From Steroidobacter agaridevorans (GTDB lineage Bacteria; Pseudomonadota; Gammaproteobacteria; Steroidobacterales; Steroidobacteraceae), in contig NZ_BLJO01000001.1 in NCBI RefSeq assembly GCF_009932555.1, positions 130,573 through 194,572 on the forward strand: a stretch of 64,000 bases of DNA, read 5' to 3'. The position numbers and the translations under genes were made by a program. This document shows positions 17,632 through 39,310 of the stretch, piece after piece. Each line of letters starts with the position of its first letter. Position 1 is the stretch's first letter. The notes beneath the pieces were generated by a model. It was not told the origin of the DNA. It did no database searches and saw only the letters and a program-made list of their open reading frames with translations.

Positions 17632-17677
17632 AGCATGCGCTGGCACACAAGTGACGTCGGTGCGCAACCGTACATAG
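17632..17677 (-). promoter_or_regulatory. Crp/Fnr-type dyad promoter without an obvious gene
   Basis: On the - strand: GTACG-GTTG-CGCAC (dyad 17660-17673), then 27 bases from half-site start to CATGCT (17632-17637). It reads toward the 3' end of the BON gene, where no - strand gene is recognised, so it may drive an antisense or small RNA, or be a copied element. Confidence 0.45.
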
Positions 17678-17695
17678 ACTTGCGCCGAAGTCCGT

Positions 17696-17717
17696 AACGT
17701 TCGCTAGCGCACCGAGC
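17696..17717 (+). promoter_or_regulatory. Crp/Fnr-type dyad, no matching -10
   Basis: GTTCG-CTAG-CGCAC at 17699-17712 followed by CGA, facing away from the dyad at 17660-17673. The position where a -10 would be expected (17735) has no fitting hexamer. Confidence 0.35.
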
Positions 17718-17760
17718 ATTCAGCTACAACAAACAGAGGAGACTTCCGCTCCCGCGGCCC

Positions 17761-17883
17761 CTAGATGAAGCTGCGTGACGCGGCTCGTTCCGCCCGTTTG
17801 ATTTTCTTCGCCGCACGCTTCTCGTCGAGTGTCCTGGTCGGCTTTTTCTTCTGGTCTTTCTTGCGATCCTGGCCCTTGCTCAT
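17761..17883 (-). CDS. Small very basic protein, 40 residues
   Basis: ATG at 17883 preceded by a GGGGTG ribosome-binding-like sequence. The protein begins MSKGQDRKKDQKKKPTRTL and ends in an AERAASRSFI tail. About one third of the residues are Lys or Arg, as in small nucleic-acid-associated proteins. It begins 33 bases after the end of the Cys-rich repeat gene on the same strand, so it is probably its downstream operon partner. The function is unknown. Confidence 0.6.
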   Translation of the reverse strand: MSKGQDRKKDQKKKPTRTLDEKRAAKKIKRAERAASRSFI

Positions 17884-17916
17884 AAGTCACCCCGTTGATC
17901 GTCAGCACAGTGGATA

Positions 17917-18609
17917 TCAATCATTGACGCAGGCCGCGCCGTGGAGATGAAAGCCCTTGTCGCATCTCCAGGCGTCGCCGGAGTAGTCCAGATGAGCATT
18001 CGCGGGGACTCGTACCGCAACGCATGCGGCGCCCTCTCGACGGAAGCCCCGGTCGCATTCCCAACTGCTTCCAGCGCGCGACAGGAATGCATTCGCCGGC
18101 AGCTCGATGGGAATGCAGGCCGCCTGCGAGGACTGGAAACCACGATCGCACTCCCAACCTGGACCGTATGACGAGTCGACCGAGTGCGCGTTGCTGGGAA
18201 CCTCGATGGCCACGCATTGGCCTTGCGCCTCGCGATAGCCGCGCTCGCATCGCCAGCCGCTACCGAATGAATCATCGAGATAGGCATTCTGCGGCACTTT
18301 GACTGCCGTACATGCATCGTTCGTTCTCAGGTAGCCCCGGTTGCAGCGCCATTGATCCCCCGATGCATCCAGGTACGCGTTCGCCGGTACGGCAATGCGC
18401 AAACAGCGATTGGCGATCCTCTCGAAGCCGGTCATGCATTCCCAGCCAAACCCAGCGCGAGTTGTCATTGCGTTATCCGGCAGGATGTCCGGCGCTTCCG
18501 CCGAGGATGAGGAAACGAACGTCGTGAGTGCCATAAACAGCACCGCAAGCAAACCTCCGGCCGTGCGTGTTGAACTCACTGAAATCCCCGAAAGCAGCTT
18601 GAAAGCCAT
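17917..18609 (-). CDS. Secreted Cys-rich tandem-repeat protein (6 repeats)
   Basis: A signal peptide (TAGGLLAVLFMALTTFVSSSSAEA) is followed by about six repeats of 31-33 residues with the pattern W-x-C-x2-G-[FY]-x6-C-x2-[IV]-x-[VL]-P-x-N-A-[YFH]. Each repeat has one cysteine pair spaced C-x10-C, likely a disulfide in the periplasm or outside the cell. A paralogue with seven repeats lies at 41939-42736. I know of no established function. The regular Trp/Cys/Pro layout suggests a binding or structural surface. The start is set by AGGAG seven bases upstream. Its promoter carries the Crp/Fnr-type dyad at 18662-18675, diverging from the cyclic glucan synthase promoter. Confidence 0.8.
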   Translation of the reverse strand: MAFKLLSGISVSSTRTAGGLLAVLFMALTTFVSSSSAEAPDILPDNAMTTRAGFGWECMTGFERIANRCLRIAVPANAYLDASGDQWRCNRGYLRTNDACTAVKVPQNAYLDDSFGSGWRCERGYREAQGQCVAIEVPSNAHSVDSSYGPGWECDRGFQSSQAACIPIELPANAFLSRAGSSWECDRGFRREGAACVAVRVPANAHLDYSGDAWRCDKGFHLHGAACVND

Positions 18610-18633
18610 TCAATGCTCCTGACAGCAGCCCGC

Positions 18634-18679
18634 AGTGTGCGGTCGGTGCGATCCGGCGTCGGTGCGCTAACGAACATAG
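18634..18679 (-). promoter_or_regulatory. Crp/Fnr-type class II promoter of the Cys-rich repeat gene
   Basis: On the - strand: GTTCG-TTAG-CGCAC (dyad 18662-18675), CGA, 16 bases, GCG-like, then CACACT (18634-18639) exactly 27 bases from the half-site start. The predicted leader is about 18 bases to the ATG at 18609. Confidence 0.6.
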
Positions 18680-18711
18680 CCCCGACTGGGTCGTCGCCGA
18701 TGCCTCTCTCT

Positions 18712-18755
18712 AAGTTCGCTACCGCACCGACGGTTGGGCGGCTCGAGTGCAAAGT
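18712..18755 (+). promoter_or_regulatory. Crp/Fnr-type class II promoter of the cyclic glucan synthase gene
   Basis: GTTCG-CTAC-CGCAC (dyad 18714-18727), CGA, then CAAAGT at 18750-18755 with the same 27-base offset. It faces away from the element at 18634-18679, so the two genes share one divergent control region. Confidence 0.6.
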
Positions 18756-18846
18756 CGCCGTTTGAATCCTTCGCTGGAGTGACGCGCGCGATCGACCTCA
18801 CGCCTCCACGCGCACCAACAGAAGTACGCCATGGAGCAGACCTTCC

Positions 18847-21800
18847 TTGAAATCGTTCCTGTCTCGCCTGCCTGGGTGGCAGCAGCCCACACCGCCTTGG
18901 AATAGCTCCGCGATCATTCGTGAGGAGCTGTTCAGCATCACGCGACTCGAACAGCACGCTGAAAGCCTAGCGCAGTCGCAACCCGTTACGACGCGACCGC
19001 AACGCAGGCGCTCGCTCAATGCGCGTCTCAGCAATAACGAAGAGGTGCTGCTCGGGGCTTATCGCACGATTACTTTGGCGGCGAGCAAGGGTGGCAACAT
19101 CACACCCGCGGGAGAATGGCTGGTCGACAACTATCATGTGATCGAACAACAAATTCGCAAGATCCACAGCGACCTGCCGCCGAGCTTCTATCGACAGCTG
19201 CCGAAGCTCGCTGACGGCCCCTTCACCGGCTATCCGCGTGTCTTTGGCATGGCGTGGGCGTGCGTCGCGCACAGCGACAGCCGCTTCGATCTGGACGCGT
19301 TGATTCGCTTCGTGCGTGCGTATCAGGTGGTGCAACCGCTGACGATCGGCGAGTTGTGGGCGATGGCGATCACGCTGCGCATCGTGCTGGTAGAGAACCT
19401 GCGCCGCGCCGCCGAACGAATCGTGAGCGGCCGAGCCGAGCGCGAGCAGGCTGATCGGGTTGCCGATCGGCTGCTCGGAGTGAACGGGCTCACGATCGAT
19501 CGACAGGCGCTGTTCCGATACTTCCAGAAGCACGGCGAGCTCCCCGCATCGTTCGTGGTGCAGGTGGTGAAGCGCTTGCGCGATCAGGACCCACGCGTAA
19601 CGCCGGCGCTGCAGTGGCTGGAAGAGCAGCTCATCGCGCAGGGAACCACTTCCGACCAGATGGTCCACGACGAGCATCAGCGCCAGGGCGCGACGAACGT
19701 CACCGTGCGCAACATCATCACCAGCATGCGCCTGATCTCCGACGTGAACTGGGCGGAATTCTTCGAAGCGGTGAGCCTGGTCGAGGCGGCTCTGTGCAGG
19801 GAGACCGATCTGGCGCAAATGGATTTCGCCACCCGCAACTTGTATCGCAGCGCCATCGAGACCTTGTCCCGTCGGTCCGCGTGCAGCGAGTTGGAAATAA
19901 CGCATGCCCTGATCGCCGCCACTCAATCGGTCGCCGCCTCCGACCCCGATGAGCCTCGCAAGCGGGACCCTGGTTATCATCTCTTGGGTCGCGGGCGACG
20001 CTCCTTCGAAGAGGTCGTTGGCTATCGCGCACCGCTGAGCCATTGGCCGCGAGCCCTGAGTGACTCAGTCGGACCCATGGGCTTCATTCTTTCGGTGCTG
20101 CTGTTAGCTGCGCTCATCATCTCGATACCGCTGGCCGCACTGGCGGCCCAGGGGATCGCGCTGGCGCATCTGTTGGTGTGCGCACTTCTGGGAATGATTC
20201 CCGCCATCGACCTCTCGGTCGCCCTGGTGAATCGTGCAGTTACGCGCGGGTTCGGCGCAACGATGTTGCCTGGGTTGTCGCTGCGCAAGGGCATTCCGGC
20301 AAGCATGAGAACCATGATCGTAGTGCCGGCGCTGCTGACCACGCGCGAAGCTATCGAAGCACTGCTCGAACGACTCGAAGTTCACTACCTCGCCTCCTCT
20401 CACGGCGAGCTGCATCTCGCGCTGCTGCTGGACTGGACCGACGCGGCGACCGAGCACACCGCCGACGACGCAGCTCTGTTGCAGATCGCAGCTGACGGCA
20501 TCGCTCGTCTCAACCGCCTCCATGAGGCTCCTTCGCAGGGCACGCGCTTCTATGCACTGCATCGCCGTCGCATCTGGAGCGACAGCCAGCAACACTGGAT
20601 GGGATGGGAGCGCAAGCGAGGCAAATTGCATGAGTTGAATCAGCTGCTGCGTGGCGCCGTCGACACGACGTTCATTGCCCCCGACACCCGGATGCCGGCG
20701 CTGCCACCCGATGTTCGCTACGTCATCACGCTGGACGCAGACACACGCTTGCCGCGAGAAGCCGTGCGACGCCTGGTCGGTAAGCTGGCGCATCCGCTCA
20801 ATCACGCCCGATTCGATGCGACCGCGGGCCGAGTCGTCGAAGGCTATGGCGTACTCCAGCCACGGGTGACGCCATCGCTGCCGATCGGTCGCGAAGGCTC
20901 GCTGTTCCAACGCACCTTCTCCAGCATGACCGGCATCGACCCGTATGGCGCGGCCGTCTCCGACGTGTACCAGGATCTGTTCGGCGAAGGTTCGTACGCC
21001 GGCAAAGGTATCTACGATATCGACGCGTTCGAGGCGGCGCTGGCCGAGCGGGTGCCGACCGGCTCGCTGCTCAGCCATGATCTGTTCGAAGGCACCTTCG
21101 CACGCGCCGCGCTCGCTTCGGACGTCGAGGTCATCGAAGAGTTTCCTGCGCGATACGACGTCGCGGCGGCACGCAGTCATCGTTGGGTACGTGGCGACTG
21201 GCAGTTGCTACCGTGGCTGTTCGGTCGTCCCCATGCGTCTCGACGCGGCACCGGCTCGTTGCCGCTGCTCGGCCAATGGAAGATGCTCGACAATCTGCGC
21301 CGCAGTCTGTCCGCGCCGACCGCTCTGCTCGCTCTGCTGACAGGCTGGTTGCTGCCGCTGCACGCGGCCTCGATATGGACTGCGTTCGTGCTGACGGCGA
21401 TTGCACTCCCGGCGCTCCTGCCGGCGTTGGCAGCGGCAGTGCCTCGACGCGGCGTCATCGCCCGCAGCCATCTGACTGCCTGGAGCCAGGACATAGCGCT
21501 CGCCTGCGCGCAGATCGGATTGATCATCACATTTCTCCCGCATCAGGCCTGGCTCATGATCGATGCCATCAGCCGCACGCTGTACCGGCTGGCCATCAGC
21601 CGACGCAACTTGCTCGAGTGGGTCACAGCGGCGCAATCGCAGCTCGCCTCGCAACCGGGCCTGGCTGGCATCTACCGACGCATGAGCGCAAGCGTGCTCG
21701 CTGCGCTGAGCGCCGTGGCCCTGATTGCCTTCGGAAAGTTCGAGGCAATCTGGGTGGCACTGCCGTTCGTAATGCTGTGGACCGCGGCGCCTGCGATCGC

Positions 21801-24800
21801 ACGACGGATCAGCGAATCGCCGCTGGTCGCCGGTCGCGTGCCGGTCTCCGATGCCGACCGGCGGGGGTTGCGCCTGGTCGCGCGTCGAACCTGGCGATAT
21901 TTCGAAACGTTCGTCAGCGCCGCTGACCGCATGCTGCCGCCGGACAACTTTCAGGAGGATCCGCGGCCCGTCGTGGCACATCGCACCTCGCCGACCAATA
22001 TGGGCCTGTATCTGCTGTGCGCCGTCAGTGCTCGCGACTTCGGCTGGACCGGAACGCTGGAAAGCATCGAGCGACTGGAAACGACGCTGGCGACCATGCA
22101 GCGCCTGCAACGATTTCGCGGCCACTTCTACAACTGGTATGACACGCGCGACCTGCGACCGCTCGAACCGCCGTATGTATCCTCGGTCGACAGCGGCAAT
22201 CTGGCGGCACACCTGATCACAGTCGCCAATGCATGTCACGAGTGGACCCGCCTCCCACTCGACACCGCAGCCCACTTCGACGGCGTCGCGGATGCTGCTC
22301 ATCTGGCCCGCGATGCCCTGCTGAAACTTCCCGACGAACATCGCACTCAGGCGCTCACGCGCCACCAGCTCACAGAGTCCTTGTCGGAACTATCCAAAGC
22401 GATCGATCGCAAAACTCCGCCAACGGATATCACGACTGCCCTTGTCCACGCCGACGTGCACGCGACCATCCTGAGCGATGGCGCTCGAGCCCTGGCGAGC
22501 GAGCACCCTGCATCGGCGTATCAGGATCTGCTGTTCTGGGCGGAGGCGACGCAGCGCTCTATCAAAAGCTGGCAACGCGACGTCCAGGCAGCGGAAAACG
22601 GTGACCAGAACATACCGCGACGGCTGCTGGCGCTCGCAGCCAGCGCACGCGCACTGGCCCTCGCCATGGAATTCGGCTTCCTCCTCGACCCCGAACGCAA
22701 GCTGCTGGCCATTGGGTATCGTGTCTCGGAAGGGGCGCTCGATGAGAGTTGCTACGACTTGCTGGCATCCGAAGCGCGTCTGGCGAGCTTCTTCTCCATC
22801 GCGAAAAACGATGTGCCGGCAAGCCATTGGTTCCGGCTCGGTCGGGAAGTCACGCCGGTGGGACAGGGTGCGGCGCTCATCTCCTGGTCAGGTTCGATGT
22901 TCGAGTACCTCATGCCCTCGCTCGTCATGCGCGCGCCCGCAGGGAGCCTGCTCGAACAAACGAGCCGCCTCATCGTGCGCCGGCAGATGGGCTACGGTGC
23001 TTCGCTGGACATTCCGTGGGGAGTTTCCGAATCGGCGTATGGCGCGCGCGATCTGGAGCTCACTTATCAGTATTCCAACTTCGGCGTGCCGGGCCTCGGG
23101 CTCAAACGCGGCCTGAGTGACAATCTCGTCATCGCTCCCTACGCAACCGGCCTTGCAGCCATGGTCGATCCGAAGGCGGCGATGCAGAACTACGCGCACC
23201 TTGCCAGTGTAGGTGCACTAGGCACGTACGGATTCTATGAAGCACTCGACTACACACGTACCCGACTGCCGGAGGGAACCGATGTCGTCATCGTAAATGC
23301 CTTCATGGCACATCATCAGGGAATGACCATCGCAGCTGTCGCCAACGTTTTGTTCGACGGAAGGATGCGTGCGCGATTCCACGCCGACGCCATGGTGCAG
23401 GCTGCCGAGCTGCTGTTGCACGAACGGACGCCGCGAGATGTGTCCGTTGCCCATCCAAGAGCCGAAGAAGTGAAAGCCGTCGCGCGCAGCGACGATCAAC
23501 AGCTGCCTACGTTGCGACGAGTGTACACTGCGCACTCCGCCGCTCCCCAGACACATATTCTCTCGAACGGGCGCTATGCCGTGATGCTGAGCGCCGCCGG
23601 ATCTGGTTACAGCAGGTGGGGCGACATCGGCATCACGCGTCTGCAAGAAGATGCCACACGCGATGATTCGGGTAGCTACCTGTTCGTGCGCAACGCCGCC
23701 AGCGGCGCGGCGTGGTCGGCCGGCTTTCAGCCGTGCGGCGTCGAACCCGACAGCTATCAAGTTACCTTCAGCGAGGACCGGGCGGAATTCGTTCGCGTCG
23801 ACGCGACAGTCATCACGACCCTCGAGGTCGTCGTATCCCCGGAGGACGATGCCGAGGTCCGACGTGTCTCGATTGCGAATACGGGCAGTAGCGCGATCGA
23901 TCTCGATGTCACCTCATACAGCGAGCTCGCGCTTGCGCCACCGGCAGCCGACTCGGCTCATCCCGCATTCTCGAAGCTGTTCGTCCAGACCGAGTTCGTG
24001 ACCCATCTCGGCGTCCTGCTGGCAACGAGGCGACGGCGCTCCTCCACCGAACCGGAACTCTGGGCGGCACATCACGTGGCCGTCGAAGGCGCGATCCTGG
24101 GGACGCTGGAATACGAAACCGATCGTGCCCGTTTTCTGGGGCGAGGCCGCGAGGTGCATGAGCCGGTTGCAGTCATGGATGGCCGGCCGCTGTCGAACAC
24201 CGTCGGTACCGTTCTCGATCCGGTGTTCGCGCTGAGACAGCGCGTTCGCGTCCAGCCAGGCGCGATGGCGCGGCTCTCATTCTGGACTTGCGTTTCAGCC
24301 ACACGCGCCAGCGTGCTCGACCTGTTCGACAAACATCGCGACGCTAACGCCTTCAGCCGTGCCGCGACGCTGGCATGGACACAAGCGCAAGTACAACTAC
24401 ATCACCTGGGCATCACGGCGGAAGAAGCACACTTGTTTCAACGTGTCGCCGGCCATGTCCTGTTCGCCGATGCCTCCCTGAGGCCCTCCTCGGCGGCGAT
24501 TCAGCGAGGCGGTTGCACTCGACCTGCCCTTTGGGCGCACGGCATCTCGGGCGATGTGCCGATCGTGCTGTTACGGATCGAGCACATGGAGGATATGGCA
24601 ATCGCCCGGCAGCTGCTGCAGGCACACGAATACTGGCGCCTGAAGCAGCTCGCCGTGGATCTGGTGATTCTGAACGAGCGCGCCGCTTCTTATGTGCGGG
24701 ATCTGCAAATTGCCCTCGAAGGATTGGTCCGCACGCGCCAATCGCAACCACAGCTTCATGTCGACAGCACCAAGGGGTCGGTCTTCGTGTTGCGCACCGA

Positions 24801-27411: not shown

Positions 27412-27633
27412 ATCCTGGACCCGGAGGACGCCATGCACGTGCTCAGTGACGTGCAGTGCTTCGATACGGACGATGTCGGTGCCGACAAAGCCGCTCAGCT
27501 CGACAACGCCGGCCAGCGTCTCCACGCGAATGTCATAGCTGGCGGTGATCGAATCCTCTCCCAGCGCCGCACGCACTTTCGCCGTGATGACCCCATCCGT
27601 GATCGCCTCGCGCGTCGACTGTTGCGTGCTCAT
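27385..27633 (-). CDS. BON-domain protein (cytoplasmic)
   Basis: The 82 residues are nearly one BON domain: ITDGVITAKVRAALGEDS, VETLAGVVELSGFVGT, then HGVLRVQDLLDVRSRD. There is no signal peptide, unlike the BON protein at 17227. Its 3' end overlaps the 3' end of the glucan synthase gene by 27 bases (convergent). It may bind lipids at the inner membrane or act as an accessory domain. The response regulator gene upstream on the same strand ends 116 bases away, so co-transcription is possible. Confidence 0.8.
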   Translation of the reverse strand: MSTQQSTREAITDGVITAKVRAALGEDSITASYDIRVETLAGVVELSGFVGTDIVRIEALHVTEHVHGVLRVQDLLDVRSRD

Positions 27634-29905: not shown

Positions 29906-29953
29906 GGACCCGCTTGGGGCCCGCAATGAGCCCTGAATCAACATCAATGCGCC

Positions 29954-30205
29954 GTGGGGACGCGAGTTCCGGGACCGCTGAAAATCCTTCAAGCGTCCAG
30001 GAGCGCGCAGCTCGCCGCGATCGTCGAGTCTGCGCAGGACGCCATCATCAACCATACCTTCGAGGGCACGATCATCCGTTGGAATGCGGATGCCAGGCGA
30101 ACGGGTCGAGCACTTCGAGATCGATCGAGTCCGTGAAGACTGCAAGCAGATCATTGCCGCCAGGAACTTTATCGCAAGTAGGCAATTGACTCGCTGTTCC
30201 CTGCT
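29954..30205 (+). pseudogene. PAS-domain gene remnant
   Basis: The + strand reads LAAIVESAQDAIINHTFEGT then IIRWNADA, a typical PAS beginning, but it runs into a non-homologous tail. About 90 bases further another frame reads ERVEHFEIDRVREDCKQI, which looks like the late strand of the same PAS domain (usual form HFETVRVRKDG). The middle of the domain is missing and the frame is broken. It sits between the kinase and permease genes and may be a leftover copy of a PAS kinase. Confidence 0.5.
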
Positions 30206-30250
30206 GCAGCCGAGGTACTCACGTGCCTTGCATCCTCGCGGAACAGAATC

Positions 30251-32029
30251 ATGACGATGGCTCAGACCCAGGCCTTCGCGATCCTCGCCGGCATGATGGT
30301 GCTGTTCGTGTGGGGACGGCTCAGGTATGACCTGGTCGCCGGTCTCGCGCTGCTCGCTGCCGTACTCGTCGGTGTGGTGCCCTACGAAGCCGCTTTCAGC
30401 GGCTTCGGCGACGATATCGTCATCATCGTGGGCAGCGCCTTGCTGGTCAGTGCGGCAGTGGCCCGCTCCGGCATCATCGAGGCGGTCCTGCATCCACTCG
30501 CACCGAAGATCACATCAACGCGTACGCAACTCGTGCTGCTGGTCACCACCGTGACCGTCCTGTCTGCATTCGTAAAAAACATCGGTGCACTTGCGATGAT
30601 GCTTCCGGTCGCTTTCCAGATGGCCAAGCGCTCCAAAACCCCGCCATCGATGTTTCTGATGCCCATGGCATTCGGCTCGCTGCTCGGCGGACTCACAACG
30701 CTGATCGGCACCTCGCCGAACATCATCGTTTCGCACTTGCGTGCCGAAATCACGGGCGCGCCGTTCGCGATGTTCGACTTCGCACCCGTCGGTGTCGGGC
30801 TCGCCGCCGCCGGGATCGCATTTCTCGCAATCGCGTACCGTCTGCTGCCGCTCGATCGCGCAGGAGCACCGACGTTGGCCGAGGCCATGGATATTCATGA
30901 CTATCTCACCGAGGGCCGGGTACGGGCCGCGTCAGCGATCGCCGGCAAGACAATGGCCGACCTGCGTGGATCCGCAGGTCCGGAGGTCGTCGTGACAGCA
31001 GTCGTTCGCGACGGCCAGAAAACTTCGCCGCTGCCCGATATGGTGATGCGAGAGAACGATATCGTGCTGCTGCAAGGTGAGCCGGCGGCTCTACAGCAAG
31101 CGGTCGCGCGGGTGGGCCTCGAACTGGAAGGCGAGGATCGCAGCATGAGGAGCGACAAGGCCAATGAGGAGATCGGCGGTGTCGAAGCGGTGATCGCTCC
31201 AGACTCGCTGCTCATCGGCCAGGCTGCCGGAGATCTGGCTCTGCATGCGCGGTTCAATGTAAATCTGCTCGCCGTGAGTCGCAGTGGCCAGCGCTTCGCC
31301 GATCGATTGCGCGACATCCAGCTTCGAGCCGGAGATATCATCGTACTGCAGGGCTCGCTCGGCGACATGCCCGCGCTCTTGCGCGATCTGGGCTGCCTGC
31401 CGCTGGCAACCCGCGAGATCAGGCTCGGCAGTGTCCGTCGCGGTGTGATCCCGATTGCAATTCTGGCGGGCGCCATGTTGCTGGCGGGCACGGGTCTATT
31501 GCCGGTCGGGCTGGCGTTCTTCGGCGCTGCATTGCTCGTGGTGTTATTTGGCTCGCTCTCGTTGCGTGAGGCTTATGCAACGGTGCAATGGCCGTTGCTC
31601 GTCATGCTCGGCGCTCTGATTCCGGTGAGTGAGGCGATTCGCACGACGGGGGGCGCGGATCTCATTGCGACCTGGCTCTCCAACATCGCTCATTCACTGC
31701 CGCCCTACGCAGCGCTCGCCTTGATCATGGCGGCAGCCATGGCGCTGACACCGTTCTTGAACAATGCCGCGACCGTGTTGGTAATGGCGCCGATCGCGGT
31801 GAGCTTCGCCAGCCGTCTTGGTTTTCAGCCCGATGCATTCCTCATGGCCGTTGCTGTGGGAGCCGCTTGTGACTTCCTCACGCCGATCGGGCATCAGAGC
31901 AACACGCTCGTGATGGGGCCAGGCGGATATAAGTTTAGTGACTACGCGCGCCTGGGTGCACCGCTGTCTTTACTTGTCATCGTGCTGGGCGTGCCGCTCA
32001 TCATGATGACATGGCCCTTGACGCGATGA
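30251..32029 (+). CDS. SLC13/DASS-type permease with two TrkA-C (RCK_C) domains
   Basis: The 592-residue membrane protein has the family plan: N-terminal membrane half (residues 1-205) with FVKNIGALAMMLPVAFQMAK and GSLLGGLTTLIGTSPNIIVS; a cytoplasmic part (215-390) with two TrkA-C domains, each ending in a DIVLLQG or DIIVLQG strand; and a C-terminal membrane half with TPFLNNAATVLVMAPIAVS and LTPIGHQSNTLVMGPGGY. The SNT/SPN motifs bind sodium and the anionic substrate in this family. Substrates may be dicarboxylates, sulfate or other anions; the RCK_C domains suggest ligand gating. No dyad promoter was seen upstream. Confidence 0.88.
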   Translation: MTMAQTQAFAILAGMMVLFVWGRLRYDLVAGLALLAAVLVGVVPYEAAFSGFGDDIVIIVGSALLVSAAVARSGIIEAVLHPLAPKITSTRTQLVLLVTTVTVLSAFVKNIGALAMMLPVAFQMAKRSKTPPSMFLMPMAFGSLLGGLTTLIGTSPNIIVSHLRAEITGAPFAMFDFAPVGVGLAAAGIAFLAIAYRLLPLDRAGAPTLAEAMDIHDYLTEGRVRAASAIAGKTMADLRGSAGPEVVVTAVVRDGQKTSPLPDMVMRENDIVLLQGEPAALQQAVARVGLELEGEDRSMRSDKANEEIGGVEAVIAPDSLLIGQAAGDLALHARFNVNLLAVSRSGQRFADRLRDIQLRAGDIIVLQGSLGDMPALLRDLGCLPLATREIRLGSVRRGVIPIAILAGAMLLAGTGLLPVGLAFFGAALLVVLFGSLSLREAYATVQWPLLVMLGALIPVSEAIRTTGGADLIATWLSNIAHSLPPYAALALIMAAAMALTPFLNNAATVLVMAPIAVSFASRLGFQPDAFLMAVAVGAACDFLTPIGHQSNTLVMGPGGYKFSDYARLGAPLSLLVIVLGVPLIMMTWPLTR

Positions 32030-32045
32030 CCGTTCCACGGCCTGT

Positions 32046-32089
32046 CCGTGCGGTAGCGAACATTGCAGCCCCGCGATCCTGCCCTTGCT
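32046..32089 (+). promoter_or_regulatory. Crp/Fnr-type dyad upstream of the barrel gene
   Basis: GTGCG-GTAG-CGAAC at 32048-32061. At the 27-base offset stands CTTGCT (32084-32089), which has the final T but not the A at position 2, so it is the weakest -10 of the set. The barrel gene starts at 32147. Confidence 0.4.
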
Positions 32090-32146
32090 ACGACTGTTCC
32101 CGGCGCTGGAATCGCCACATCGTTCCCGTTCTATCGGGAGGCCGGG

Positions 32147-33031
32147 ATGCTTGCGTCGCTCCATGGCAGTCACTCACACCCGCGGTTTCGCCACATCCGA
32201 TGGAGTCGATTGTGGCGAACGGCAGTGGCCGCACTTGCCCTGCTTCCCGTCCCCGCATTGTGCGACGACGCGCGTGGCGCATTAGGCGACGCGTTTTATA
32301 TCGCGGTCGGAACGTTCATCGTCGACACTGACACCACGCTGCGTCTCGACGGGAACGCTGGCCAGCAAGGCGTACCCATCGATTGGGAAAGGAATTTCGG
32401 CGACGGCGACGTGAACCGTTTCCGCTTCGACGGCTTTTGGCGCTTCGCCGATCGGCACAAGCTGCGAGCACTGGTGTTCAGCTCTTCGCGCAGCGCCTCC
32501 AGGACATTCGATGAGAATCTGGAATGGGGCGGTGACACCTTCCCGGCCAACGGCACGATCGAGGGCAAGATCAAATTCTCGATCTACGAGCTCGCGTACG
32601 AGTATGCGTTCATTCGTCGCGAGAGTTACGAGCTCGCAGCTTCGATCGGTCTGCATTACCTCGACTTCGAAGCAAGGCTGGCGGGGAACGCGACAGCCAC
32701 GGGCACTGCCGGGACCGCGGAGGAGCGCATCGAGCGGACTGGCAGTGTCGGCGCTCCGTTGCCGGTCTTTGGCTTGCGCGGGACCTGGATGCTGTCGCAA
32801 ACAGTCTCGATCGATGTATCCGGTCAGTTCTTCTCCCTGAGCTACGGCGATTACGACGGCAACATACAAGACTATCGCGCACTGTTTAACTGGCAGCCGA
32901 AGAGCTGGCTGGGCATTGGCGTCGGCTACGATCGCTTCGCCGTCGACCTCGATGTGGACGGCAACAACTTCAAGGGCACCATGGACTGGTCATACCAAGG
33001 GCCGATGATCTTCTATAGCGTATCGTTTTGA
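32147..33031 (+). CDS. Outer-membrane beta-barrel protein
   Basis: The ATG at 32147 has GGGAG at 32136-32140; the frame extends back to 32063 without a better start. The 294-residue protein has a basic start, a signal peptide (LWRTAVAALALLPVPALC) and then alternating strands with many aromatic residues (NRFRFDGFWRFADRHKLRAL, WLGIGVGYDRFAVDL). It ends in MIFYSVSF, the Phe-terminated barrel signal. It is likely a 10-14 strand barrel. No specific substrate can be read. The deleted barrel at 4714-5043 is a different family member or a distant relative. Confidence 0.78.
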   Translation: MLASLHGSHSHPRFRHIRWSRLWRTAVAALALLPVPALCDDARGALGDAFYIAVGTFIVDTDTTLRLDGNAGQQGVPIDWERNFGDGDVNRFRFDGFWRFADRHKLRALVFSSSRSASRTFDENLEWGGDTFPANGTIEGKIKFSIYELAYEYAFIRRESYELAASIGLHYLDFEARLAGNATATGTAGTAEERIERTGSVGAPLPVFGLRGTWMLSQTVSIDVSGQFFSLSYGDYDGNIQDYRALFNWQPKSWLGIGVGYDRFAVDLDVDGNNFKGTMDWSYQGPMIFYSVSF

Positions 33032-33118
33032 TCGCAATCTGGACGGCTGCCGCGCTCCATTTTCAAAGCACACCGCACCAAGAGGCATTTCAGCGTCAGC
33101 GCTTGACCGATGCGGCAT

Positions 33119-33162
33119 ATGTGCGCCACCGCACCGAGGGCGCCGCGGCGCTGGCGCATTCT
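33119..33162 (+). promoter_or_regulatory. Crp/Fnr-type class II promoter of the desaturase operon
   Basis: GTGCG-CCAC-CGCAC (33121-33134), CGA, 16 bases, then GCG-CATTCT with CATTCT at 33157-33162. The dyad is nearly perfect. The predicted leader to ATG 33202 is about 33 bases. Confidence 0.6.
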
Positions 33163-33201
33163 CAATAGCCACGTTCAGTGAGACATGGCGAGCGCAAGGG
33201 C

Positions 33202-33462
33202 ATGAACTGCGAAGAAAGGAATGGACCCGATGACCGGTCCGACTCATCGCCAACGCATGGCGCCGCTCCCGACACGGAAGATGCGGCAAGCACTCCTTCG
33301 CCGCTTGCTCACATCGACGCGCTTGCCGTCGCCACGCTCTCGAGCGAGGCGCTGGCCCGCTATCAGGCGTACAAAGAAGTGCTGCTCGCTCGCGAACAGG
33401 ACGAAGCAGCCATCCTCTCTACGCTGACTCTGTTCGTGCGGGATCTCTCCGAGAGCCGCTAG
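33202..33462 (+). CDS. Small hypothetical protein, paralogue of 35471-35680
   Basis: The start MNCEERNG at 33202 is chosen because the paralogue also begins MNC; a GTG at 33178 is possible. After a polar Ser/Pro/Asp-rich stretch, the C-terminal 48 residues (ALARYQAYKEVLLAREQDEA, then LFVRDLSESR) match the paralogue (QARYTAYRDALIADGQDGEQ, then LFLWNLSEGR) over its whole length, so this is a real small family with a two-helix look. The stop overlaps the desaturase start (TAGTG), so it is coupled to lipid desaturation. Function unknown. Confidence 0.65.
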   Translation: MNCEERNGPDDRSDSSPTHGAAPDTEDAASTPSPLAHIDALAVATLSSEALARYQAYKEVLLAREQDEAAILSTLTLFVRDLSESR

Positions 33463-34580
33463 TGTCCACTCCTGCCGCATTGGAGCGTCCTGCAAGCGTG
33501 CATGCGTCCGGAGCAGTCGCAAGTCACATCAGCGAAAGCGAGCGGTCGCATCCGGCCGAGTTGAAAGATGTCCTCTTGGCGCATCAGAACGCTTCCACGA
33601 AGCGCGCGCTATGGCAGCTCGCAAACACCTTCCTGCCGTACCTTCTGCTGTGGTTGGCGATGTACTGGGCACTGGAGGTGTCGCTGTGGCTCACCCTGCC
33701 GCTTGCAGCTCTCTCGGGCGCGTTGCTGGTGCGCATTTTCATCATCTTCCATGATTGCACGCACGGGTCCTACTTCCGTTCTCGGCGCGCGAACGACATT
33801 GTCGGCTTCATCGCTGGCGCCTTGACGTTCAGTCCGTACCAGCACTGGCGCTGGGAGCACGCGATTCATCACGGCAGTTCCGGAAATCTCGACCGACGCG
33901 GAACCGGCGACGTATGGACCATGACCGTCGAGGAATATCTGAGCGCGTCGCGCCAGCAACGTTTTCTGTACCGGCTGGCGCGCAATCCACTGGTACTGTT
34001 CGTGCTCGCGCCGCTGTTCGTCTTCGTGATCAAGCAGCGCTTTGCGGCCGCGAACGCGCAACGGCGACAACGCCACTCAGTGTGGTGGTTGAACCTGACG
34101 CTGCTGATCAGCACGACGCTGCTGAGCTCGCTATTCGGCCTGGCCCCTTACCTGCTCATTCAATCGATCGCTATGACTGTGGCTGGCGCGACCGGCCTGT
34201 GGCTCTTCTATGTCCAGCATCAGTTCCAAGGTGTCTACTGGGAACGCAACGACAAGTGGGACTACACGGCAGCCGCGCTGCGCGGCAGTTCCTACTACAA
34301 GCTGCCTAAAGTGCTGCAATGGCTCTCCGGGAACATCGGCTTTCATCATATCCACCATCTCAGCCCGCGCATTCCCAATTACAACTTGCAGAAGTGCCAC
34401 GACAGCGACCCGCGATTCGCAGAGGTCACGTCGCTGTCGCTGCTGTCGAGCCTGCAATCGCTCAAGTTCCGCTTTTGGGACGAGCAGACCCGGGAACTCG
34501 TCGGCTATGCGCACATTCGCAAGCTCGAAGCGGGCCGGCGTGCGGACCGCCGCTCGGGCTCCGCACGTCCAGTCGCTTGA
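33462..34580 (+). CDS. Membrane fatty acid desaturase
   Basis: The 372-residue protein starts at a GTG overlapping the previous stop. It has the three histidine boxes of membrane desaturases: HDCTHGS, HAIHHGSSG and HHIHHLSPRIPNY. These bind the di-iron centre, and membrane segments lie before box 1 and between boxes 2 and 3 (WWLNLTLLISTTLLSSLFGL). The family introduces double bonds into acyl chains using oxygen and an electron donor, adjusting membrane fluidity in cold or envelope stress. It is downstream of a Crp/Fnr-type promoter and convergent with a Crp/Fnr gene, with a one-base gap. Confidence 0.9.
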   Translation: MSTPAALERPASVHASGAVASHISESERSHPAELKDVLLAHQNASTKRALWQLANTFLPYLLLWLAMYWALEVSLWLTLPLAALSGALLVRIFIIFHDCTHGSYFRSRRANDIVGFIAGALTFSPYQHWRWEHAIHHGSSGNLDRRGTGDVWTMTVEEYLSASRQQRFLYRLARNPLVLFVLAPLFVFVIKQRFAAANAQRRQRHSVWWLNLTLLISTTLLSSLFGLAPYLLIQSIAMTVAGATGLWLFYVQHQFQGVYWERNDKWDYTAAALRGSSYYKLPKVLQWLSGNIGFHHIHHLSPRIPNYNLQKCHDSDPRFAEVTSLSLLSSLQSLKFRFWDEQTRELVGYAHIRKLEAGRRADRRSGSARPVA

Positions 34581-34581
34581 A

Positions 34582-35301
34582 TCAATACTGAGTCATGGCC
34601 GGCAGCAGCCGATCGAATTCCTTCTTGACCACGGCGTAGCATTCGCAGGTCCGTGCCTCCAGGCCCGGACGATCGAGCACCGTGATGCGTCCGCGACTGT
34701 ATCTGATCAGTCCGGCGCTTTGCAGATTGCCTGCCGCCTCCGTCACGCCTTCACGACGCACGCCCAACATATTGGCGATCAATTCCTGCGTCATCACCAG
34801 CTCGTTGCCCACCAGGCGATCCAGACTCAGCAACAGCCAGCGGCACAGTTGCTGGTCCACCGAATGATGCCGATTACACACCGCAGTCTGCGCCATCTGC
34901 GTCAAGAGCGCCTGCGTGTACCTCAGGAGCAGATGCTGCATGGGTCCGCCGAGCGTAAATTCTTCCTTGAGAAATTTCCCGGACCATCGATACGCGTAGC
35001 CAGCGCTCTGCACCACCGCGCGGCTCGGCGTAGTTTCGCCGCCCATGAAGAGCGACACGCCGATGATCCCTTCGTTGCCGACCACGGCAATTTCCACAGA
35101 AGAGCCGTCCGCCAACGTATAAAGAAGCGAAACGATCGCGCTGGTCGGAAAGTACACTGCCCGCTGACGACTGCCGGATTCATACAGGGCCTCGCCGAGC
35201 GGCAGCTCCACGAGTTTCAGATTTTTGCTCACTCGCTCCAGATCCTCCGAAGGCAACGCGGCCAGGAGTTGGTTCTGACGAAGGTCGTGAGCTGCCGTCA
35301 T
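34582..35301 (-). CDS. Crp/Fnr-family transcriptional regulator (first copy)
   Basis: The start MTAAHDLRQNQLLAALP at 35301 gives the usual N-terminus; a GTG at 35340 would add 13 residues and overlap the predicted promoter. Residues 10-130 form a cyclic-nucleotide-binding-like beta roll (ELPLGEALYESGSRQRAVYF, VVGNEGIIGVSLFMGGETT). Residues 150-225 are a winged helix with the recognition part MLGVRREGVTEAAGNLQ. It has no Cys cluster of the Fnr type and lacks the cAMP-contact RxS motif in a form I recognise, so its signal is unknown. A dyad matching the regional element lies just upstream, suggesting autoregulation. Confidence 0.88.
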   Translation of the reverse strand: MTAAHDLRQNQLLAALPSEDLERVSKNLKLVELPLGEALYESGSRQRAVYFPTSAIVSLLYTLADGSSVEIAVVGNEGIIGVSLFMGGETTPSRAVVQSAGYAYRWSGKFLKEEFTLGGPMQHLLLRYTQALLTQMAQTAVCNRHHSVDQQLCRWLLLSLDRLVGNELVMTQELIANMLGVRREGVTEAAGNLQSAGLIRYSRGRITVLDRPGLEARTCECYAVVKKEFDRLLPAMTQY

Positions 35302-35316
35302 CGAGAGGGCCCGAGC

Positions 35317-35360
35317 ATAGTTGAGTTCCGCGCCACCCACTTATGTCCGATATCGTACAC
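35317..35360 (-). promoter_or_regulatory. Crp/Fnr-type dyad upstream of the first Crp/Fnr gene
   Basis: On the - strand: GTACG-ATAT-CGGAC (35345-35358). At the 27-base offset lies AACTAT (35317-35322), with A at position 2 and T at position 6. It predicts a very short leader before the ATG at 35301. Confidence 0.45.
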
Positions 35361-35470
35361 ACTTCACGTCGTCGCAGCAGCAATTGCGAGGCGCGGCGTA
35401 AGGTGAAGCTTTACAACGATTGTGTGGTGCGCGAGGCCGACAACGGCGCCTCGAGCATGGGGCGCAGCGC

Positions 35471-35680
35471 CTAATGCACCCCATTTACGGAACGACCCTC
35501 CGACAAATTCCACAGAAACAGCCAGAGTGTCTGCACGACCTGCTCACCGTCCTGCCCATCCGCGATGAGTGCATCTCGGTACGCCGTGTAGCGAGCTTGC
35601 CCTGGGCCCGTCAGCGCTGCGTCAGCGACCTGATCGAGGGTCACGAGCTTTGCTGACAGATCGGTGCGCGCGCAATTCAC
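35471..35680 (-). CDS. Small hypothetical protein, paralogue of 33202-33462
   Basis: A 69-residue protein starting at a GTG that overlaps the stop of the PAS gene (GTGA, 35677-35680), so it is translationally coupled. It begins MNCARTDLSAKLVTLDQV and continues ARYTAYRDALIADGQDGEQV, aligned with the paralogue that is coupled to the desaturase. One copy is tied to a PAS sensor and the other to a desaturase, both behind the same kind of promoter. Two helices are likely. Function unknown. Confidence 0.65.
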   Translation of the reverse strand: MNCARTDLSAKLVTLDQVADAALTGPGQARYTAYRDALIADGQDGEQVVQTLWLFLWNLSEGRSVNGVH

Positions 35681-36270
35681 GTTGGCGGGCTCGCCACGTA
35701 GCTGAACCCCTGCACTCGCCCGTCTCGAAGCACCACCGGTTCGATGTCGAAAGAGCCCAAGAACGCGCTTCCGTCCCGCCGGCGCCGCCACGCTCGCCGT
35801 GTGATGCGACCATCGATAACCGCTGCACGCAAATCACGATACGGCTGTCGCTTTCCAACTTCCTCGGAGACATAGAACTGTGACAAATGACGGTCCACGA
35901 CTTCCTCGGAGGCGTAATCACGCCCATCCGGACTGCCGTACCAGCAAACCACGACTCCCGTCTCGTCCAGCATGGCCAGCGAACTCGACTGCCCAGCCGC
36001 AGTCATCTTCGTGTGCAGTCGTGCCCCGCGCTTCGACAACGCTCGCCGCCGCCATAAGCGAATCTTGTCGGAACGGCTGTCGGCATGACTGTCTTGATCC
36101 CACTTCGATATGGAGAGCGATGACCAACCTGGCGGCGAGTCGCTGGCGCCTTCGAGCTTGGAATCGGAGCCCTGCCGCGCGGCTTCCGACATCGGCTGGG
36201 GATTGCTGTCGGTAGAGATCGCAACAACGTTCTGCCGGTCCTCCCCTGGCATTGCCCGCTTGGAATTCAT
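35677..36270 (-). CDS. PAS-domain protein
   Basis: A 197-residue protein with GGGAG upstream of its ATG. The first 85 residues are polar and Arg-rich. Residues 90-195 form a PAS domain: LAMLDETGVVVCWYGSPDG, then VVDRHLSQFYVSEEVGKRQP, AWRRRRDGSAFLGSFDIEPV and QGFSYVAS. A similar PAS protein lies at 43328-43960 with the same HxSQFY segment. No output domain is attached, so it may bind a partner such as the GAF or HWE kinases. It has the Crp/Fnr-type promoter and is coupled to the small protein at 35471-35680. Confidence 0.82.
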   Translation of the reverse strand: MNSKRAMPGEDRQNVVAISTDSNPQPMSEAARQGSDSKLEGASDSPPGWSSLSISKWDQDSHADSRSDKIRLWRRRALSKRGARLHTKMTAAGQSSSLAMLDETGVVVCWYGSPDGRDYASEEVVDRHLSQFYVSEEVGKRQPYRDLRAAVIDGRITRRAWRRRRDGSAFLGSFDIEPVVLRDGRVQGFSYVASPPT

Positions 36271-36297
36271 GTGCTACTCCCTATGAGACCAGCCCGT

Positions 36298-36341
36298 ACT
36301 GTGCGCTGGCGGCATCTGTCGATCAGTGCGCTAGCGAACAT
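36298..36341 (-). promoter_or_regulatory. Crp/Fnr-type class II promoter of the PAS gene
   Basis: On the - strand: GTTCG-CTAG-CGCAC (36326-36339), TGA, 16 bases, then GCG-CACAGT with CACAGT at 36298-36303. The sequence downstream of the -10 (TACGGGCTG) closely matches that of the element at 18634-18679 (GCGGGCTG). Confidence 0.6.
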
Positions 36342-36376
36342 TGCATAGCGAGGGCCCGATTGCGTTACACGCCCGC

Positions 36377-36731
36377 TTAGCATCGCGAATCACTGCGCGA
36401 CACCCATGCCACAGCGATTCCCGTGCACACGGCCAGCCAGCAAAAGGTCAGTATTCCCGCTGGCTTGCCGACGACGAACGCGAAGAAGATCGTCATTGCT
36501 CAACTCGCCCAGCACCAGCTCGCGTTTGAGCCCGACCGGCGACTCTCAAAGGCCAGCGAAGCTGTGCGCCCAGGGAGAGTTGGAAGGCACGAACGCAATG
36601 AGCGCGGCAACCAACAACACCAAGCCGCCGAGCGTCTCAATGCGCAGGAACCTGCCGAACGGATGAGTCAGCCGATCCACAGGCTCTGGCGGCAACCTGG
36701 CTAGGTCCGAGGTGAGCCGGCTTTCGTTCAT
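36377..36731 (-). pseudogene. nhaA: Na+/H+ antiporter NhaA, heavily deleted
   Basis: From ATG 36731 the frame reads DRLTHPFGRFLRIETLGGLV and LLVAALIAFVPSNSPWAHSF, the first segment of NhaA, then stops. Immediately after the stop ESPVG is joined to LKRELVLGEL, which in NhaA lies about 45 residues later. A shift then gives FFAFVVGKPAGILTFCWLAV, which belongs near residue 300 of NhaA. So at least two internal deletions, a stop and a frameshift are present. The remnant ends at the stop 36377-36379. It lies between the dyad promoters of the PAS and OmpA genes. Confidence 0.8.
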
Positions 36732-36879
36732 GCTCACTGGGCACGCGCCGACGCGCGATGCGGGATGTATCTGTGGCTGACGAGGCTGTTGCGAATCCGG
36801 GCCATCTTGGATGCAGATGGAACCCGATGCAATCCTGTGTCTGCGCGGTGGTGGCGAATAGTGCCGAGCCGGGAGCGCT

Positions 36880-36923
36880 GAGTTGGGTACCGCACCGACG
36901 GCAGCGGAGTCCCGGTGCACAGT
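36880..36923 (+). promoter_or_regulatory. Crp/Fnr-type class II promoter of the OmpA gene
   Basis: GTTGG-GTAC-CGCAC (36882-36895), CGA, 16 bases, then CACAGT (36918-36923). One half-site is weaker. The predicted leader is about 20 bases to the TTG start at 36950. Confidence 0.55.
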
Positions 36924-36949
36924 TGCGCTTTCGAACAGGAGCACCGTCC

Positions 36950-37540
36950 TTGCCCTCGCCCGATCGTCATTTGCCTGTAGCCGCCCTCGCTCTAGCAGGC
37001 GCGGTATTGCTCGCGGTCTGCGGGCCGGTCAGCGTCGCAGACTCGCAGACCGAAGCCAATGAACAAAGACAAAAGTTGGAACATCTGCGCGATGTGAACG
37101 CCCAAGCGCGCGATAACGCCACGGAACTGCGACGTGAAATGAACGAGTTGCAGGCCGAAGCTATCGACCGTGGCCTGCTGCTGACGCTGGACGATGCGCT
37201 GTTCACCACGAACGCCGTTAGATTGAGCATCCCTGGTCATCGTCGGGTCGAGGCCTTGGCCGAGTTTCTCGAGCAGCATCCGGAACGCAACGTGGCAGTC
37301 GATGGTTATGCAGGCGCGGGCAACTATCGATACGACCAAGCCTTGTCGACCCGCCGCGCCGATGCTGTCAGGACGTATCTGCTGAGACGCGGCATCGCTG
37401 CAAATCGGCTGACCGCGCGCGGCGCCGACTTACCGCAGGACGATGACGACTTTGCGCCACGGCAGCGTCGCGTCGAGGTGATCATCGAAGATCCGTTGAC
37501 CCTGGCGCCGCAGCTCGATGCGACAGCGCCAGGGACGTAG
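36950..37540 (+). CDS. OmpA-domain protein
   Basis: The frame is open to 36758, but the promoter lies inside that part. A TTG at 36950 preceded by AGGAG (36937-36941) gives 196 residues beginning with a signal peptide (LPVAALALAGAVLLAVCGP). A charged coiled-coil part (EQRQKLEHLRDVNAQARDNA) follows, and residues 75-180 form an OmpA C-terminal domain. This domain has LTLDDALFTTN, VAVDGYAGAGNYRYDQALS and RRADAVRTYLLRRGI; the usual peptidoglycan-contact Asp/Arg pair is represented by ALSTRRADAV. The family links the envelope to peptidoglycan. It is the second OmpA-domain protein of the region. Confidence 0.85.
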   Translation: MPSPDRHLPVAALALAGAVLLAVCGPVSVADSQTEANEQRQKLEHLRDVNAQARDNATELRREMNELQAEAIDRGLLLTLDDALFTTNAVRLSIPGHRRVEALAEFLEQHPERNVAVDGYAGAGNYRYDQALSTRRADAVRTYLLRRGIAANRLTARGADLPQDDDDFAPRQRRVEVIIEDPLTLAPQLDATAPGT

Positions 37541-37577
37541 CACTACATCACCACCCTCTTCACAGGAGCACCCACTC

Positions 37578-37832
37578 ATGCGTCGCACTACAATCGGAAG
37601 CCGCTGGAATACACCGGGCCGGCGCTACGCAGGCGGCTGGCGGCAGAACCCATGGATCAATGCCATGTGCAACGCCTTGCACGTTCGAAACGAAACCGAC
37701 GGTGCGTGTTCCGACCGCAAGCTCGCCGACCAGCCTGGGCCGGACGACCGGCAGCAAAGAGCTGCTGTAAGGATTTGGGAAAATGAAGGCGGCAGCCTCG
37801 GCGCCAATCCGGATCGCACGCTCAGTCACTGA
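37578..37832 (+). CDS. Small hypothetical protein downstream of OmpA
   Basis: AGGAG at 37565-37569 precedes the ATG, 37 bases after the OmpA gene. The 84 residues begin with a basic stretch (MRRTTIGSRWNTPGRRYAGG) and end in DDRQQRAAVRIWENEGGSLG. The WENEGGS ending is the type of sequence I associate with small conserved proteins of unknown function. The 3' end overlaps the convergent Crp/Fnr gene by 11 bases. No signal peptide or domain is seen. Confidence 0.45.
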   Translation: MRRTTIGSRWNTPGRRYAGGWRQNPWINAMCNALHVRNETDGACSDRKLADQPGPDDRQQRAAVRIWENEGGSLGANPDRTLSH

Positions 37833-38601
37833 GCTTGTGCGCCGTCCGCCGCGTCGATGCCTGGTGGGTGCGACGAGGCCTCGGCGAGGACAATGAGCCC
37901 AAAGCACGCTCATACATGTCGTTCGCTCCTCGATAACATGCGCACGATGCCTCCTCGAGCGCAGGCCCGTCCAGGATAGTGATGGCACCACGTCGGTAAT
38001 CGATCAAACCTTCTTCTCGCAACGAGTTCGCGGCGTTCGTGACCCCCACCCGCCGCACGCCGAGCATGTGTGCCAGAAATTCCTGGGTGACATGAAACTG
38101 ATTGCCGCGCACCTGATCGCGGTTCATGAGCAGCCGCCGCGCCAGACGCGCCCGCACTTGGTGATAGTGCGAACAAGCCGTCGTCTGGGCCAATTGTCCC
38201 ATCAGCACATACATGTAACAGTTCAGCAGCCGGCACAGAACGATGTTCTTGCGCAAATGCCGCTGAAACACGGCGGCACCGAGCCGCCACGCCGTACCCG
38301 ACCGCTGGACTATCGCATGCTGCGCCGATGTGTTGACGCCCAGGATGATCGACGAACCCAGCATGCCCTCGTGACCGATGCTGCCGACCTCCAGACGCGA
38401 TCCGTCGTGCAGCGTGGTTACCAAGGATATGATGCCGTCGGTCGGGAAATACACGTGCCTCATCCGCTCGCCCGACCCGCAGATAAGCTCCGCGGAACAC
38501 AGCTCGACCCGCTCGAAGTCAGCAAACAAGCGCTGCCGATCCGGCCCGGCCAATGTCGCCAGCAGACGGTTCTCGCCCGCACTTTGTTTGAACGAACGCA
38601 A
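37822..38601 (-). CDS. Crp/Fnr-family transcriptional regulator (second copy)
   Basis: A 259-residue paralogue of the regulator at 34582. It starts at TTG 38601. The N-terminal beta roll has ELICGSGERMRHVYFPTDGI and VGSIGHEGMLGSSIILGVNT. The winged helix has VTQEFLAHMLGVRRVGVTNA, with the shared LGVRR part, and a C-terminal basic tail of about 35 residues not seen in the first copy. The shared recognition segment suggests that both proteins read similar DNA sites. A dyad with a good TACCCT hexamer lies 45-86 bases upstream, so autoregulation is likely. It diverges from the DUF4398/OmpA/kinase operon. Confidence 0.88.
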   Translation of the reverse strand: MRSFKQSAGENRLLATLAGPDRQRLFADFERVELCSAELICGSGERMRHVYFPTDGIISLVTTLHDGSRLEVGSIGHEGMLGSSIILGVNTSAQHAIVQRSGTAWRLGAAVFQRHLRKNIVLCRLLNCYMYVLMGQLAQTTACSHYHQVRARLARRLLMNRDQVRGNQFHVTQEFLAHMLGVRRVGVTNAANSLREEGLIDYRRGAITILDGPALEEASCACYRGANDMYERALGSLSSPRPRRTHQASTRRTAHKLSD

Positions 38602-38645
38602 TGAGTTCTCGCGCTACGGCCGGAAGATGTTTCAGCCTCGCGTCG

Positions 38646-38689
38646 AGGGTACCCCCGCCGACGTCATCTCGATGTACGTTGGCGCACAC
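38646..38689 (-). promoter_or_regulatory. Crp/Fnr-type class II promoter of the second Crp/Fnr gene
   Basis: On the - strand: GTGCG-CCAA-CGTAC (38674-38687), then TACCCT (38646-38651) at the 27-base offset. This is the best -10 of the set. The predicted leader is about 38 bases to TTG 38601. Confidence 0.55.
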
Positions 38690-38738
38690 CCGAATGAATA
38701 TTCCAAGCTTGGTCGGCGATGCCGCATCGCGCCCCCCT

Positions 38739-38782
38739 ATGTGCGCCAACGCACCGAGATCCCCAGCGCGGCAGCGCAATCT
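38739..38782 (+). promoter_or_regulatory. Crp/Fnr-type class II promoter of the DUF4398/OmpA/kinase operon
   Basis: GTGCG-CCAA-CGCAC (38741-38754), CGA, 16 bases, then GCG-CAATCT with CAATCT at 38777-38782. The dyad is nearly perfect. It diverges from the promoter of the second Crp/Fnr gene. Confidence 0.6.
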
Positions 38783-39283: not shown

Positions 39284-39310
39284 TGTATTCCCAATCATAC
39301 GCATGAGGTC

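Follow-up and report, generated by a model that had tools for sequence, protein, structure and literature searches.

A putative class II promoter element of an LGVRR-type Crp/Fnr subfamily on genomic islands of Steroidobacter agaridevorans and other proteobacteria

Many Crp/Fnr proteins encoded in genomes have no known target. Among the closest described systems are the FNR, FixK and DNR regulons, in which a Crp/Fnr dimer acts at a class II position on 5-4-5 dyads of the TTGAT-N4-ATCAA type, with frequent autoregulation. Here we describe a dyad of the same layout, GTNCG-N4-CGNAC, which recurs with a downstream hexamer and two Crp/Fnr genes, regulators A and B, in a 64,000-nucleotide stretch of Steroidobacter agaridevorans (NZ_BLJO01000001.1, positions 130,573 to 194,572; hereafter the window). 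It resembles the FNR-type systems in its predicted dimeric Crp/Fnr binder, class II position and autoregulation, and differs from them in its GTNCG half-site, in the LGVRR recognition helix and in its predicted envelope and stress-type targets on islands. FNR proper carries an N-terminal Cys cluster for a 4Fe-4S centre; no such cluster is present in the sequence of regulator A, whose only Cys residues are at 155, 166, 232 and 234, which places it outside FNR proper.

FnrL boxes are listed in the part of PMC2908626 considered here. According to part of PMC6127331, the low-oxygen-activated (lxa) locus of Burkholderia cenocepacia comprises six universal stress protein (USP) genes with a CRP-family protein as candidate regulator, and, like the dyad islands as read here, it groups co-regulated stress genes on an island of a beta-proteobacterium. 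That the dyad islands are the lxa locus was considered for the gene content and was not borne out on the one replicon compared, NZ_CP091013.1, where none of five Usp matches fell within the dyad island. The hybrid promoters of Herbaspirillum Fnr1 and Fnr3, as covered in part of PMC5934665, also involve two Crp/Fnr paralogues and have asymmetric half-sites proposed for heterodimers; operator and gene set differ from those described here. No description of the present operator or subfamily was found in the literature searched, which lay mostly outside subscription journals, figures and supplements, or in the portions considered of PMC8510549, PMC2908626, PMC5934665, PMC6127331, PMC4603805 and PMC9045368. 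A Crp/Fnr subfamily with this new operator, and with a regulon that may travel along, is probably undescribed.

From sequence analysis, we consider it likely that the dyad and its hexamer form a class II promoter element of an autoregulated Crp/Fnr subfamily, with the LGVRR-E protein, regulator A, as activator of an island regulon. In the proposed mechanism, a dimer of this regulator (34582-35340) would bind TATGTNCG-N4-CGNAC(A/C)GA, centred at -41.5 relative to the transcription start, would replace the -35 box, and would recruit RNA polymerase to a weak -10 hexamer that reads CANNNT here and often TANNNT elsewhere. Regulator A would activate its own gene, the paralogue at 37822 and the adjacent envelope and stress-type genes, and islands, some of which lie on plasmids or a conjugative element, would carry regulator and regulon together. 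A widespread Crp/Fnr subgroup would gain a testable predicted operator, promoter architecture and gene set.

Dyads and hexamers in the window and the genome

The first-pass annotation of this DNA had listed eleven GTNCG-N4-CGNAC dyads (Table 1). Ten of them are exact, and the one at 36882 (GTTGG-GTAC-CGCAC) has a single mismatch. The nine hexamers with A at position 2 and T at position 6 are all present at the offset it had given, exactly 27 bases from where the downstream half-site begins, and the two sites it had set apart, 32048 and 17699, indeed have CTTGCT and AGAGGA there. The whole window contains 15 exact dyads; the five outside that list (4493, 7058, 23733, 30772 and 50753) lie outside 17.6-38.8 kb or within long open reading frames (ORFs) and look like chance occurrences. 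We estimated the chance level from 100 order-2 Markov versions of the window, which had a mean of 2.9 dyads and a maximum of 8. A dyad with ANNNT at offset 27 occurs nine times (a count that includes 17660 read in reverse and excludes 36882, eight being exact as listed earlier), compared with a Markov mean of 0.23 and a maximum of 1, and a CGA-followed dyad with CANNNT occurs five times in the window and in none of the Markov versions. Control dyads in the window numbered three for the mirrored form and 1, 2, 3, 5 and 1 for spacers of 2, 3, 5, 6 and 7 bases, respectively. At four sites (17660, 33121, 36326 and 38741), and in a B. cenocepacia island (L249, L250), GCG directly precedes the CANNNT hexamer, possibly as an extra promoter feature.

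In the 8.0 Mb genome, GTNCGN4CGNACCGA had 25 matches (6 in the window, 3 in C3:1-20000 and 16 elsewhere) and its reversed control 18, so the bare dyad is not enriched genome-wide. The full element, GTNCGN4CGNACCGA-N19-CANNNT, was found seven times, five in the window and two in the C3 island, compared with none for the reversed control. ANNNT stood at offset 27 in 7 of 9 island sites and in 0 of the 16 sites elsewhere. Nor is the element confined to this region, as its first description as a regional regulon implied, since the second island carries it too. This island, C3:1-20000 (L026), is a rearranged paralogous copy of most of window 13-45 kb, with long segments 75-91% identical, and has its own regulator pair and elements. 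All four regulator matches of the genome at E <= 1e-30 fall within the two islands. At 7122 in L026, the second copy of the 36326 element has CACAGT at offset 28, one base further, and is perhaps a decaying promoter.

Because the two islands are paralogous, some of their elements are mutual copies, and the Burkholderia islands likewise resemble each other. It could therefore be argued that the elements are passive repeats spread by island duplication. We regard this as highly improbable: dyad and hexamer are retained where the spacer sequence varies, and the sites are intergenic and stand in front of different genes in distant genera. Within the genus, alignments of orthologous promoters showed a fixed dyad and hexamer and variability in much of the spacer.

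Promoter geometry and co-occurrence with the regulator

Relatives of regulator A were taken as the best 80 of 576 loci, with 68-87% identity, from genomes and metagenome-assembled genomes that were mostly beta- and gammaproteobacterial by title; the nearest named one was that of Steroidobacter gossypii (87%). Their loci, 865 kb in total, contained 178 dyads compared with 46 matches to the mirrored control, and dyad density was 12-fold higher in the 300 bases upstream of the regulator (1.90 per kb) than in the rest of the loci (0.158). For the 45 upstream dyads, the consensus is the longer TNTGTNCG-N4-CGNACANA, with T at -3 in 38, T at -1 in 34, A at +14 in 33 and A at +16 in 32. TATAAT-like hexamers (>=4/6) peaked at offset 27, where 11 of the 45 had one, and other offsets from 15 to 44 had 0-4. 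A similar peak was observed among 72 dyads in 20 stretches around regulators of eight genomes of the class. For the 58 island sites with (A/C)GA after the dyad, ANNNT stood at offset 27 in 39 (0-12 at other offsets from 14 to 44) and TANNNT in 25 (0-5). In samples that had not been selected for the hexamer, all from mutually similar Burkholderia islands, it occurred at offset 27 in 10 of 14 sites in 40 kb of NZ_CP091013.1 (0-1 at other offsets) and in 13 of 22 sites in L190 and L198 (0-3). These related islands are not independent, kinship being considered only through the regulator tree.

The fixed dyad-to-hexamer distance in the window and in the relatives bears out the class II geometry proposed earlier, and with a transcription start 7 bases beyond the hexamer, offset 27 would centre the dyad at -41.5. 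A dyad there covers the -35 region as well, and some Crp/Fnr proteins act as repressors at such positions. It is possible that the regulator binds the dyad and mainly represses, blocking polymerase over the -35 region until a signal releases it. However, promoters of many genera keep the hexamer at a single offset, where a repressor would tolerate more positions, and such constancy is expected if the protein must touch polymerase. We consider repression unlikely; the promoter geometry suggests that the regulator activates.

The element clusters with the regulator. In a survey of 274 genomes of the class, in which the regulator was called at E <= 1e-30, the regulator was present in 31 genomes and the extended motif TNTGTNCGNTANCGNAC in 61. 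The motif was found in 23 of the 31 genomes with the regulator and in 38 of the 243 without it (Fisher p 5e-11, uncorrected for kinship). Regulator genomes had 104 matches compared with 9 for the control (palindromic sites counting twice). On the 3.2 Mb replicon NZ_CP091013.1, GTMCGN4CGKACMG had 24 matches (control 9): 21 at 250.7-295.3 kb, where two dyads were counted on both strands, one adjoining the regulator at about 70.9 kb, and two at other positions. In a search of 21 genomes of the genus and order, the regulator was present in nine, all of which had an A-like match (80-100%) plus another at 39-45%. Full-pattern matches adjoined regulators in G284:C11, G275:C1, G281:C645, G283:C11 and C22, G278:C56 and C291, and G280:C2.

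The genome encodes other members of the family, with PF13545 matching at 13 places, 10 of them above the cut-off, and the extended motif also occurs in the 38 regulator-free genomes of the class. Another Crp/Fnr protein might thus bind the dyad, the LGVRR genes being mere neighbours. This seems to us quite improbable, as the dyads cluster around LGVRR regulators in several genomes and the operator covaries with the LGVRR helix. Furthermore, the regulator-free genomes of the class show no motif excess, with 44 matches compared with 67 for the control (hand count), and the 12 regulator-free genomes of the genus and order had three full-pattern matches in all, with only one among their four genus members. 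Regulator A is the probable binder of the dyad.

The regulators and their recognition helix

Regulators A and B both match PF00027 and PF13545 above the cut-off, which assigns their domains to the Crp/Fnr superfamily, and are approximately 41% identical, B belonging to an LGVRR-V clade. The model of regulator A has the Crp/Fnr fold (pLDDT 87.5), with mycobacterial CRP, GlxR and FNR of A. fischeri as its best Foldseek matches. The residue after LGVRR was Glu in 113, Val in 29 and Ser in 16 of 162 distinct proteins, and it covaries with the operator. Base 3 of the half-site was G/T in 219 of 316 cases at Glu loci, with C in 4, and G/T in 4 of 74 at Ser loci, with C in 13; for this count, nine regulator-free island stretches were placed manually with the Glu group of their own genome, and L193 with Ser. 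By locus, with the nine hand-assigned stretches left out, any G/T half was present in 62 of 66 Glu loci compared with 2 of 15 Ser/Pro/Ala loci. Among the Burkholderiales with sites, those retaining Glu (Collimonas, Duganella, Noviherbaspirillum, Acidovorax, Variovorax and Polaromonas) use G/T, and a stretch of CH34, which has LGVRRE within the Burkholderiaceae, contains dyads such as GTGCG-GAAT-CGAAC. The Glu/Ser rule would be a simple handle on operator recognition within the superfamily.

The first-pass annotation had both Crp/Fnr genes binding the element and both autoregulated. The sequence evidence points to regulator A and scarcely to regulator B, and an exact dyad lies within 300 bases upstream of the regulator in 40 of the 80 loci related to A. 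A-like and more distant regulator genes are often adjacent (L194 20022-21633, L195 20001-21853 and several genomes of the class), which hints at a working pair.

Several observations weigh against regulator A acting as the autoregulated activator of these elements. In the other 40 of the 80 loci, the 300 bases upstream lack an exact dyad, so that autoregulation cannot be called universal, and on P. aeruginosa pKLC102 no dyad directly precedes the regulator gene. The extended motif was missing from 8 of the 31 regulator genomes of the class; it was found in three of the six genomes with A-like matches only, a mixed result, and in neither of the two with B-like matches only. In the genus, G285 has the regulator and no full-pattern match, and eight full-pattern matches lie at a distance from regulator genes, of which three belong to G284, two each to G275 and G281 and one to G276. 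In the regulator tree, the Ser, Pro and Ala proteins form one clade (96/98), separate from that of the Val group (100/100), so that the helix-operator covariation amounts to about one specificity change. Finally, the sites at 17660, 17699 and 32048 fall outside the simple scheme; the 17660 element has no evident gene in the direction of its hexamer.

Among 51 aligned proteins including B, C155, H159, C232 and C234 were invariant and H158 and C166 nearly so, and this conservation suggests redox or metal sensing. A more far-reaching reading, which we advance tentatively and think rather doubtful, is a portable general-stress regulon in which islands and plasmids carry a self-activating regulator along with many class II promoters built for it. 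In this reading, these residues (CNRHH, C166, CECY) would form a redox or metal sensor, the paralogues, with their different recognition helices, would form heterodimers, and the residue after LGVRR (Glu or Ser) would set the third operator base and so give rise to operator dialects. Regulator and regulon may move as a unit and respond to a stress signal, and a recipient would then acquire a stress programme that it controls itself. However, C followed the dyad in 14 of 55 sites where the locus had LGVRR-V and in 47 of 123 where it did not, so this base does not track regulator B as expected of heterodimers, and the heterodimer idea remains speculation.

Genes downstream of the element and features of the window

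As judged from sequence, a recurrent island unites the element, the regulator and stress-type genes. In seven annotated plasmid stretches (L193, which overlaps L190, being left out), 41 of 46 dyads were intergenic compared with 26% of bases, a share that the incomplete PLSDB gene table may overstate. Genes following the element there include those for PRC-barrel, Ysc84, CsbD, glycine-zipper, BON, slipin and phasin proteins. As the downstream ORF we took, mechanically, the longest one whose start lay no more than 260 bases away; of 187 distinct ORFs, 148 were scanned with Pfam, those of the window, of L026 and outside 45-900 amino acids (aa) being left out. They contained HTH_Crp_2 (13), BON (11), CsbD (7), Ysc84 (5), PRC (5) and GGDEF (5), a tally that is an inventory of downstream genes and not an enrichment. 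Genes for BON, CsbD, PRC-barrel, Ysc84, glycine-zipper, desaturase and GH94 synthase proteins recur together on the islands and plasmids compared, and a switch common to all of them would account for this lasting association. pKLC102 resembles the window in combining a GH94 gene, a Crp/Fnr relative (73.5% identical to A) and a desaturase; its accessory stretch contains three dyads with hexamer and, unlike the window, no annotated second LGVRR regulator. No description of the regulation of the pKLC102 accessory genes was found in the literature searched.

Table 1. Predicted elements and genes (positions in the window, except for the last row)
Feature	Position	Strand	Details
Dyad with hexamer CATGCT	17632-17673	-	dyad 17660-17673, hexamer 17632-17637; conserved in genus relative G284 (L247)
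Dyad without hexamer at offset 27	17699-17712	+	39 bases from 17660 dyad
Class II element 5' of Cys-rich repeat gene	18634-18675	-	dyad 18662-18675, hexamer CACACT 18634-18639
Class II element 5' of glucan synthase	18714-18755	+	dyad 18714-18727, hexamer CAAAGT 18750-18755
Dyad without hexamer (CTTGCT)	32048-32061	not assigned	
Class II element 5' of 94-aa ORF and desaturase	33121-33162	+	dyad 33121-33134, hexamer CATTCT 33157-33162
Predicted autoregulatory element of regulator A	35317-35358	-	dyad 35345-35358, hexamer AACTAT 35317-35322
Class II element 5' of 197-aa protein	36298-36339	-	dyad 36326-36339, hexamer CACAGT 36298-36303
Element with one dyad mismatch (GTTGG) 5' of OmpA gene	36882-36923	+	dyad 36882-36895, hexamer CACAGT 36918-36923
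Element of regulator B	38646-38687	-	dyad 38674-38687, hexamer TACCCT 38646-38651
Class II element of DUF4398-OmpA unit	38741-38782	+	dyad 38741-38754, hexamer CAATCT 38777-38782
Cys-rich repeat protein, 230 aa	17917-18609	-	predicted leader 17 bases; sub-threshold EGF_MSP1_1 match only
GH94-type cyclic glucan synthase-like protein, 2854 aa	18847-27411	+	predicted leader 84 bases
94-aa ORF and fatty acid desaturase	33178-34580	+	ORF 33178-33462 (start uncertain), desaturase 33462-34580
Regulator A, Crp/Fnr, LGVRR-E	34582-35340	-	ORF starts 35340; likely start ATG at 35301
197-aa protein	35677-36270	-	predicted leader 20 bases
OmpA-family protein	36758-37540	+	ORF begins 5' of element; real start probably ~36950 (by eye)
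Regulator B, Crp/Fnr, LGVRR-V	37822-38601	-	predicted leader 37 bases
DUF4398, OmpA-family and GAF histidine kinase genes	38840-41586	+	DUF4398 protein 38840-39283, OmpA-family protein 39311-40126, GAF histidine kinase 40123-41586
CheB/CheR-type genes on C. pauculus plasmid L192	14347-18114, 34109-37102, 38206-40675		

The protein at 35677-36270, earlier labelled PAS, had no Pfam match at E 0.001. The pair of dyads at 17660-17712, conserved in G284, perhaps marks an unannotated small gene or RNA. Nearby, a short stretch at 17762-17882 is 88% identical in L026 and contains a small Lys-rich minus-strand ORF (by eye). Fusions of CheB, CheR and PAS histidine kinase domains, or CheB/CheR genes, lie near the regulator both in the window (13374-16739) and on the C. 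pauculus plasmid, and are possible signalling partners of the regulator.

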